Below, in pieces: positions 17,865-20,193 of a stretch of 37,389 nucleotides of DNA (its first letter is position 1; every line of letters begins with the position of its first letter). Origin of the DNA: Gammaproteobacteria bacterium (GTDB lineage: Bacteria; Pseudomonadota; Gammaproteobacteria; JAKEHO01); NCBI GenBank assembly GCA_027296625.1, contig JAPUIX010000101.1, positions 1 to 37,389 on the forward strand, in the 5' to 3' direction. The notes under the pieces are model-generated. The model made no database searches. It saw only the letters and a program-made list of their open reading frames with translations, and was not told the DNA's origin. The position numbers and the translations under genes are program-made.

Positions 17865-18124
17865 TCTGGCACTAACACTACCGCATTCATCGAGGGTACA
17901 CGCAGGTCGAGTTTTGTATGCGCCAACGACTCAACCCGAGCATCCGTAGCCCACGTACTCTGCTCCAACTGCAAGCGTCCCCATTCTTCATTTAGCGCGT
18001 CGCGTACCCCTTTCAAGTCTTCCAGCCCTACAAACAGTCTGCGACTCTGATGACGTGCGACCACGACTTCAATCGCCGAAACAAGTACTGCAGTAAGTAA
18101 AACTAAAAAAAATAAACGTTTCAT
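17861..18124 (-). CDS. ftsL: Cell division protein FtsL
   Basis: An 87-residue bitopic membrane protein. The N-terminus KRLFFLVLLTAVLVSAIEVVV is the membrane segment; the remainder, with ESRRLF-like periodicity and LKGVRDALNEEWGRLQLEQ, is a leucine-zipper-like periplasmic coiled coil ending with the family's LAHTKLDLRVPSMN. FtsL pairs with FtsB and links FtsQ to FtsW and FtsI. The assignment depends strongly on the position between rsmH and ftsI, overlapping both by 4 nt, since FtsL sequences diverge; the W and RL spacing also fits. Confidence 0.92.
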   Translation of the reverse strand: MKRLFFLVLLTAVLVSAIEVVVARHQSRRLFVGLEDLKGVRDALNEEWGRLQLEQSTWATDARVESLAHTKLDLRVPSMNAVVLVPE

Positions 18125-19062
18125 GCGGCTATCTTCTCGGCGATTCGTAGTCGGGCACTCCGCGAACGCGGGTTTCGCGATTTCTCTTCCTCTGTAGCCC
18201 GGATGACGCGGCCCACCGCCCGTAATGTGGGTCTTAACGCAGTCTGCGTTATGGGAATATCTTGCGGATAGGCATCGCCGCGCGCTTGGTCTCTGATAAA
18301 GCGTTTAACCAAACGATCTTCCAAGGAATGAAAGCTAATCACTAACAACCGACCGCCTGGCGCCAGAATGCGGACTACTTGGGACAGCGCTTCGTTAAGG
18401 TCGTCCAATTCACGATTAATCAAGATTCGGAGCGCTTGGAATGTTCGTGTAGCTGGGTGCTTGTTGCGTTCGCGGGTCGGGCTTGCTGCCACCACAATAT
18501 TTGCTAACTGTCTTGTGCGCGTAATCGGTGAGGTTTTGCGGGCATCTATGATGGCTCGCGCTACTCGCTCTGCATAACGCTCTTCACCATAGTCATGGAG
18601 AACTTCCGCGATCTCATGTTGGGTCGCGGCGTTCAACCATTGTGCAGCAGTTATCCCAGTGTGCCTGTTCATGCGCATGTCCAAAGGCCCGTCTAGGTTG
18701 AAACTAAAGCCGCGGCCTGCATCGGCAAGCTGCGGCGAAGAGACACCAAGATCAAATAGAACGCCATCGACGTTGCCAATATGGCCGTGTTTTTGCACCA
18801 GGGATAACAGCATCGTATATGAGCCTTGTTCGATAGCGAATCGCCCGTCGGATGCAAACTGATCCTGAGCGGCTGCAACCGCCTCAGGATCCTTGTCGAT
18901 AGCCAGCAAATGTCCCTCTTCACCCAGGCGCTTGAGAATCGCCTCAGCATGACCACCGCGCCCAAACGTACAGTCAACATACACGCCGGCAGGGCGGATA
19001 TTGAGACCGTTCAGAACCTCCTGCACCAGTGCCGGTGTGTGTTCACCTCGACCTGCGTCCAT
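18121..19062 (-). CDS. rsmH: 16S rRNA (cytosine-1402-N4)-methyltransferase
   Basis: SAM-dependent enzyme that methylates N4 of C1402 in the ribosomal P site; RsmI, encoded near 20.3 kb, modifies the same nucleotide on the ribose. The 313 residues show HTPALVQEVLNGL, the SAM motif YVDCTFGRGGHAEAIL, LLAIDKDPEAVAAA, GVLFDLGVSSPQLADAGRGF, the DMRMN motif, and LLVISFHSLEDRLVKRF. It follows mraZ by 6 nt and overlaps ftsL by 4 nt, the conserved mraZ-rsmH-ftsL order. Confidence 0.97.
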   Translation of the reverse strand: MDAGRGEHTPALVQEVLNGLNIRPAGVYVDCTFGRGGHAEAILKRLGEEGHLLAIDKDPEAVAAAQDQFASDGRFAIEQGSYTMLLSLVQKHGHIGNVDGVLFDLGVSSPQLADAGRGFSFNLDGPLDMRMNRHTGITAAQWLNAATQHEIAEVLHDYGEERYAERVARAIIDARKTSPITRTRQLANIVVAASPTRERNKHPATRTFQALRILINRELDDLNEALSQVVRILAPGGRLLVISFHSLEDRLVKRFIRDQARGDAYPQDIPITQTALRPTLRAVGRVIRATEEEKSRNPRSRSARLRIAEKIAA

Positions 19063-19068
19063 TCATGC

Positions 19069-19527
19069 CTAGAGGGACAAGGCTCGCAACGCCTCCGTGG
19101 GCGCATCCGAATCCTTGCCAAGTTGTTTTAGCCATTGATCGCGCTGCTGGTTCCAAGCAGTCTCTTCCCATAATTCAAATTTGTTGCCCTGGCCCAGCAT
19201 CACTGTCTGCTTAACGAGTCCCGCATAATCCCGTAACGGCTGCGGTAGCAGTATTCGCCCCTGTGCATCCATCCGACAATCATTTGCATACCCACGCATC
19301 ATCTGTTTGGCACGCCGACTCTGTTTATCAAAGTCAGACAGGTCGGCAAGCTTTGCCTCAATCACCTCCCACTCCGGCAATGGATATAACCATAAGCAGC
19401 GATCCAGCGGGTTCGGGGTTAGTACCAAGAATCCTTCACAGATCGTCGTGAGGCGCTCCCGATAGCGACTCGGAATCGCGATTCGCCCTTTGACATCCAC
19501 ACTGAGTATGCTGGATCCTCGAAACAC
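19069..19527 (-). CDS. mraZ: Transcriptional regulator MraZ
   Basis: DNA-binding repressor of the dcw operon, an AbrB-like double-domain protein that forms rings. The 152 residues start with GTG at 19527 and read FRGSSILSVDVKGRIAIPSRYRE, with the second copy of the motif at CRMDAQGRILLPQPLRDYAG, then VMLGQGNKFELWEE. The two DxxGR(I/L) repeats are the family's DNA-contact motifs. AGGAGG lies 6 nt upstream of the GTG, which fixes the start. Four tandem boxes sit immediately upstream (19540-19579), so autoregulation is likely. It is the first gene of the minus-strand cluster. Confidence 0.96.
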   Translation of the reverse strand: MFRGSSILSVDVKGRIAIPSRYRERLTTICEGFLVLTPNPLDRCLWLYPLPEWEVIEAKLADLSDFDKQSRRAKQMMRGYANDCRMDAQGRILLPQPLRDYAGLVKQTVMLGQGNKFELWEETAWNQQRDQWLKQLGKDSDAPTEALRALSL

Positions 19528-19533
19528 GCGCAG

Positions 19534-19539
19534 CCTCCT
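19534..19539 (-). promoter_or_regulatory. Ribosome binding site of mraZ
   Basis: AGGAGG on the minus strand, 6 nt before the GTG start at 19527. It decides the non-ATG start. It abuts the last MraZ box, so bound MraZ would lie right next to the translation start region. Confidence 0.8.
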
Positions 19540-19579
19540 GTTTTCCTACTTTCAACCACATAGGCCCACTTTTCCCCAC
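19540..19579 (-). promoter_or_regulatory. MraZ operator: four contiguous 10-bp boxes
   Basis: Reading the minus strand, four consecutive decamers follow without a gap: GTGGGGAAAA, GTGGGCCTAT, GTGGTTGAAA and GTAGGAAAAC. Boxes 1 and 2 carry the TGGG core known for MraZ (TGGGN5 repeats in E. coli); boxes 3 and 4 are degenerate. The 10-bp period puts all cores on one face of the helix. The array starts 6 bp downstream of the TATAAT, covering the expected transcription start. Confidence 0.85.
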
Positions 19580-19585
19580 GTTTGA

Positions 19586-19617
19586 ATTATATAAGAACAG
19601 CACTAGGCCAATGTCAA
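19586..19617 (-). promoter_or_regulatory. Main promoter of the dcw operon
   Basis: A perfect TTGACA (19617-19612) on the minus strand is followed by overlapping -10 candidates: TATATA (19593-19588, 18-bp spacer) and TATAAT (19591-19586, 20-bp spacer). Transcription would start inside the MraZ boxes. This is the only strong promoter seen ahead of the cluster. Confidence 0.7.
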
Positions 19618-19628
19618 GAAAACTTTAG

Positions 19629-19646
19629 GATTTCTTTCGAGAAATC
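19629..19646. repeat. Perfect 7-bp inverted repeat upstream of the dcw promoter
   Basis: GATTTCT-TTCG-AGAAATC (plus strand) is a perfect hairpin ending 11 bp upstream of the -35 box. On the minus strand it is followed by CTAAAGTTTTCTT, so it could end read-through from rnpB; a protein-binding palindrome is the alternative. Confidence 0.5.
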
Positions 19647-19719
19647 TGTCTTGTCGAACAGGGACTTAGCGACGAAAAGCTGTGTGAACAGCCAGCAGAC
19701 GGACAAACTTTTCAGAAAT

Positions 19720-19742
19720 AAGTTAATTTATATCATTAACTT
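19720..19742. repeat. Perfect 8-bp inverted repeat in AT-rich spacer
   Basis: AAGTTAAT, a 7-nt spacer TTATATC, and ATTAACTT form an exact dyad of 23 bp. It lies in the gene-free stretch between rnpB and the dcw promoter. It looks like a dimeric regulator site or a weak AT hairpin; nothing identifies the binder. Confidence 0.5.
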
Positions 19743-19808
19743 GTAGTTGTTTATTAAGGTCATTTAGGAGTCAAAAACACTCAAGGTCAACAGGCGCTAA
19801 AGGAGAAA

Positions 19809-20193
19809 GGGAGCCGACCTGTAAGCCGGGTTCTGTTCCGCAATTTGGGCCGCCGCCCTATTACGGTGGCAATCATTCATCTTGGGTGTACGTCGCCGCA
19901 CACCTCTAGCGACCTACCCGGGAACGACGCGGGCCACGTCTCGCCGCAAAGCAGCTGGTTCCCCTATTTGGTCTTGCTCCAGGTGGGGTTTACCTTGCCA
20001 CCGGTATTACTACCGATGCGGTGCGCTCTTACCGCACCTTTTCACCCTTGCCGCCCCAATTGGGGGTAGGCGGTCTCTTTTCTGTGGCACTTTCCGTAGG
20101 CTTGCGCCTCCCAGGCGTTACCTGGCACCTTGCCCTGTGGAGCCCGGACTTTCCTCTGCGCCAAAAGCCACAGCGACTGCCCGGTCGGCTCCC
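19809..20193 (-). ncRNA. rnpB: RNase P RNA (M1 RNA, bacterial type A)
   Basis: The catalytic RNA that removes 5' leaders from tRNA precursors. On the minus strand the 5' end GGGAGCCGACC (20193-20183) pairs perfectly with the 3' GGTCGGCTCCC (19819-19809) as helix P1. Universally conserved blocks are present in order: GAGGAAAGTCCGGGCTCC near the 5' end, GGTGCCAGGTAACGCCTGG, AGGGTGAAAAGGTGCGGTAAG, GAGCAAGACCAAATAGGGG, AGATGAATGATTGCC and ACAGAACCCGGCTTA near the 3' end. Length is about 385 nt, close to the 377 of E. coli. TTTCTCCTTT follows the 3' strand of P1. A weak promoter (TTGCAA at 20230-20225, GAAACT 17 bp on) fits a start near 20195. The L15 region looks unusual (see findings). Confidence 0.97.

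Follow-up and report, generated by a model that had tools for sequence, protein, structure and literature searches.

The window, that is, the whole stretch of 37,389 nt that was analyzed, contains an mraZ gene at 19069..19527 on the minus strand, which starts with GTG at 19527 and encodes a protein of 152 aa that matches the Pfam family MraZ (PF02381) with 104.9 bits (cut-off, 23). The next gene is mraW (rsmH; 18121..19062, minus strand, PF01795). According to Pfam, the gene order is MraZ, MraW, FtsL, a class B penicillin-binding protein, and a Mur ligase, and lpxC is located close to the far end of the window; together, these genes form a dcw cluster. On the same strand, mraZ is immediately preceded by a class A RNase P RNA (19806..20192), the only Rfam match in the window, and farther upstream follow an rsmI-like gene and then a divergent LppC gene. 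This arrangement fits a gammaproteobacterium, and the wider relatives identified by the search all belong to that class as well. A simple scan of the region from 19500 to 19850 did not find a terminator. The order to which the organism belongs is represented by two genomes among those compared, and neither mraZ nor mraW was found in the other one (G001, 87% complete). The two genes were also not found in the genomes G005 (97% complete) and G023 (99%), which reflects either gene loss or an assembly gap.

The MraZ protein consists of two PF02381 stretches and contains the motifs D-x-K-G-R and D-x-x-G-R. The residues D11, K13, G14, R15, D87, G90, and R91 are invariant across 18 aligned MraZ proteins. 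An AlphaFold2 model of the protein (mean pLDDT 89.3) matched solved MraZ chains of Mycoplasma genitalium with Z values of about 19–20 and an rmsd of 3.0–3.6 over 136–138 residues. This match supports a shared MraZ fold; it carries no information about the mode of binding to the DNA described here.

Ahead of mraZ, the minus strand contains four decamers that abut without gaps from 19579 to 19540, followed by the Shine-Dalgarno motif AGGAGG (19534..19539) and the GTG start codon. Read towards the gene, these are box 1, GTGGGGAAAA (19570..19579), box 2, GTGGGCCTAT (19560..19569), box 3, GTGGTTGAAA (19550..19559), and a weak candidate box 4, GTAGGAAAAC (19540..19549). They match the core GTGGG at five, five, four, and four of the five positions, respectively, that is, at 18 of 20 positions in total. 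The array thus comprises four boxes under a loose 4-of-5 rule and three boxes under the requirement of an exact GTGG. In the number, contiguity, and positions of the decamers, the initial annotation was correct.

It had also placed the array right after the dcw promoter. A putative sigma-70-like promoter is indeed found just upstream, but its spacing is non-canonical and the arrangement is less clean than had been implied. TTGACA at 19617–19612 (minus strand) would be a perfect −35 hexamer, and the −10-like element TATATAAT (19586..19593, minus strand) offers two choices, namely TATATA after a spacer of 18 nt or the better hexamer TATAAT after a spacer of 20 nt. The promoter of the window was not called by a simple scan that allowed a spacing of 16–18 nt and required T at the last base of the −10 element. 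One relative (L078) likewise has a spacing of 18 nt, which ends in TATAGT, and therefore TATATA is the likelier homologous −10 element. Box 1 begins 6–8 nt past the −10-like element of this predicted promoter, and transcription would start at about 19581–19579, at the edge of box 1.

The four-decamer array is beyond chance. A score of 18/20 was observed at a single site on either strand of the window, the next best score being 15. Dinucleotide shuffling of the 278-nt gap, repeated 20,000 times, gave no score above 15, and among 100 shuffled versions of the entire window the highest score was 17. Other periods (7–9 and 11–14) gave a best score of 16. Throughout the genome of 2.42 Mb, the exact pattern GTGG-N6-GTGG-N6-GTGG occurs at one place, namely before mraZ. 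When at most one mismatch was allowed, the three-box pattern was found at 13 places in this genome, versus 14 in a backwards control, and no further target stands out. The corresponding values for a two-box GTGGG pattern were 62 forward and 77 reverse, versus 70 and 102 in the backwards control. Because neither the two-box nor the three-box counts exceed those of the controls, no MraZ regulon is visible in this genome, and the expectation that a motif search would reveal further MraZ targets was not borne out by these counts.

To what extent the array is shared was assessed across the class, in which 318 of 369 genomes, including that of the window, had a match to MraZ. Upstream regions were taken for 127 of the other matches (29 loci and 98 that were fetched), the best of those listed; therefore, the sample leans towards the closer MraZ proteins. 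A further 44 genomes, from a set in which 45 of 56 had a match, and 73 loci were added, and these sets overlap. Altogether, 245 upstream regions were collected and 184 were kept, including that of the window, after removal of 54 near-duplicates, five regions that were too short, and two that belong to divergent, low-scoring mraZ loci (L076 and L077). The latter two, which do not enter the counts, have no array upstream of mraZ. A strong three-box array, with at least 12 of 15 matches, was present in 153 of the 184 non-redundant regions, again including the window, as compared to four of the 184 reversed and none of the 184 shuffled regions. The remaining 31 regions scored below 12 of 15 and thus lack a strong array. 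The number of consecutive boxes under the 4-of-5 rule varies among the 153 arrays, with one box in seven, two in 20, three in 80, four in 39, and five in seven arrays.

The nearest relatives were represented by 15 non-redundant regions with MraZ proteins that are 57–72% identical to that of the window. For one of them (L080), the best triple of which began with a promoter-side GTGCG, the register was moved by one box by hand. In this set, box 1 is GTGGG in all 15 regions, box 2 is GTGGN in 14, and box 3 is GTGGN in all 15 and GTGGA in 12. An alignment of related upstream regions had been proposed as a check, and for boxes 1–3 it revealed conservation almost throughout, with one exception at box 2.

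The same check had a different outcome for the fourth box, the lack of which in relatives had been named in advance as an observation that would speak against the proposal. Of the 15 nearest relatives, 14 have no in-register 4-of-5 match at the position that corresponds to box 4. The exception is L166 (58% identity), which contains five in-register boxes (GTGGG, GTGTC, and three GTGGA) that extend into the assigned reading frame. Because these boxes run into the assigned start, both the true start codon and the leader of L166 are uncertain. In another region, L157, a GTGGA is found 31 bases past the first box and thus one base off register, possibly representing an 11-bp step. A core identical to that of box 4, GTAGG, is present in L015.

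Given this absence from most of the nearest relatives, box 4 is either a weak, lineage-specific addition or partly a product of chance. According to the second possibility, the operator would consist of three boxes only, and box 4 would be a GTAGG that arose by chance in the purine-rich sequence ahead of the Shine-Dalgarno motif. We take this possibility seriously, although at somewhat less than even odds. In addition to the pattern in the relatives, it is consistent with the situation in E. coli, where the third box is also trailed by a purine-rich in-register decamer, GGGGTGAGGC, with three of five matches, and with the frequency at which a 4-of-5 match arises at random, which is about 1.4% at one in-register position and about 3% over both flanks. 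The class-wide counts argue against chance. For all 153 arrays, the number of downstream 4-of-5 matches hinges on the rule by which ties are broken, with 11 matches when the latest triple is taken versus 38 with the earliest. Downstream of an exact GTGG triple, the next in-register decamer is a 4-of-5 match in 26 of 101 regions, including the window, whereas off-register matches account for 24–25 of 1,836 positions, the source of the value of about 1.4% per position. In-register downstream fourth boxes are thus about 18 times more common across the class than off-register matches. On the strength of these counts and of the GTAGG in L015, we are inclined to view box 4 as a real, if weak, box that would provide an extra contact gained in this lineage.

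A further claim of the initial annotation was that the boxes grade from consensus to degenerate towards the gene, and that this gradation suggests cooperative binding nucleated at box 1. The trend over boxes 1–3 was recovered as a trait of the near clade, in which box 1 is uniformly GTGGG and box 3 is mostly GTGGA, but it is not general across the class. For the 68 arrays that were scored as four boxes, the mean core matches were 3.68, 4.51, 4.51, and 4.18 of five. The first box is the weakest in these arrays and reads GTGT in 56%. Thus, the trend does not point to the first box as a site of nucleation. Binding that starts at a consensus box 1 and spreads cooperatively to the weaker boxes would fit the box sequences of the nearest relatives, and yet we consider it improbable, since, across the class, box strength is frequently lowest at the first box and since a pre-formed ring that sits on several boxes at once, to which the titles of PDB entries and passages of PMC5282649 point, would not need any spreading. 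As a rule for the whole class, nucleation at box 1 appears unlikely from the distribution of box strengths. For MraZ of Mollicutes, a passage of the same source states binding “as a single octamer” (PMC5282649). The simpler picture would be a single ring bound to several boxes together.

The regions of the relatives also revealed a relationship between the array and the promoter. In 97 regions with recognisable −35 and −10 elements, the fifth place of the −10 element is G in 85 cases, and in 70 regions the −10 element ends exactly 8 nt ahead of the first GTGG box. In 57 of these 70 regions, GT follows immediately, as compared to three of the 27 regions with other spacings (Fisher P of about 2e-10), but the rows are non-independent by descent, and kinship inflates the GT count. 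The sequence TATAGTGT is frequent as a −10 element in relatives (for example, L095, L168, L170, and L171), and the GTGT within it falls in phase with the 10-bp repeats of the array. The window itself does not have such a promoter-fused box. The MraZ literature that was searched, which did not extend to the 2014 study on E. coli, contained no mention of a promoter-fused box, and novelty is not claimed. A tentative and rather doubtful generalization would be to view the operator as a register of 10-bp boxes that can slide. In many Gammaproteobacteria, the last two bases of TATAGT would open a GTGT box, so that repressor and polymerase would share bases, whereas in the lineage of the window the promoter-side box may have been lost and a fourth box gained on the side of the gene, with the number staying at about four.

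Taken together, the results indicate that the array is most probably the operator at which MraZ acts as a repressor of mraZ itself and of the dcw cluster for cell division and the cell wall, with boxes 1–3 as its conserved part; we assign a probability of roughly 0.92 to this reading. The original proposal of an MraZ operator before mraZ, at the expected transcription start, is thereby supported at the level of the DNA sequence. According to the proposed mechanism, MraZ, as a ring of double AbrB-like subunits, would contact the GTGGG cores. With one core per 10 bp, all of them would point to the same side of the double helix over a stretch from roughly +1 to +30 or +40, and a ring bound at the start site would block RNA polymerase. 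The sequence and register of the boxes, the identity of the genes, and the conservation were observed directly, whereas binding, repression, the geometry of the ring on this DNA, and the transcription start are what we infer.

The repeats would also be located in the 5′ leader and adjoin the Shine-Dalgarno motif, as might be expected of an element that acts at the level of the RNA, for example a repeated GUGGG leader that influences the translation of mraZ. Rfam yielded no family match over the repeats. The helical period of 10 bp and the association with mraZ across the class are instead in line with DNA binding, and in many relatives the array starts within the untranscribed −10 element, and hence we regard an RNA element as very improbable. 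Under the operator reading, the window adds one more case of the autorepression of the cell-division cluster, a switch that is already well described, from an order that is represented here by two genomes, and the class-wide variation in the number and position of the boxes bears on the question of how a ring of eight subunits reads three to five boxes.

The closest well-known counterpart is the dcw operator of E. coli. The E. coli K-12 control comprises GTGGGAAATT GTGGGGCAAA GTGGGAATAA, 12–41 nt before the ATG of mraZ, and thus, as in the window, contiguous GTGGG decamers, three in number, with a 10-bp period just upstream of the gene. The two differ in that box 3 of the window is weaker (GTGGT) and is followed by the weak GTAGG decamer, whereas E. 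coli has GGGGT at that place. Burkholderia cenocepacia and the organism of the window belong to the same phylum but to different classes. The B. cenocepacia operator is described, in passages of PMC7761207, as four 7-nt repeats with 3-nt spacers across the start site, and in a gel shift MraZ shifts the fragment that holds them. It resembles the array of the window in the four repeats, the 10-nt period, and the location downstream of the −10 element and over the start site.

In Mycoplasma, the MraZ operator is given as (AAAGTGKN3)3 in a passage of PMC5282649, and two structures from Mycoplasma genitalium are available, the titles of which read “MraZ in complex with 4 box promoter” (PDB 9sz7) and record MraZ “with its promoter” (PDB 9r4j). 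As far as these sources go, Mycoplasma shares with the window direct repeats with a GTG core and a 10-nt unit before mraZ, and a four-box complex has been solved (9sz7); it differs in that it belongs to a distant phylum and has the consensus AAAGTGK instead of GTGGG. The initial annotation had contrasted the four boxes with the known operator. Four boxes are not new, because 46 of the 153 arrays run to four or five boxes and because four-box operators are already recorded for B. cenocepacia and M. genitalium (9sz7). The array in the window is a further instance of the known type of MraZ operator.
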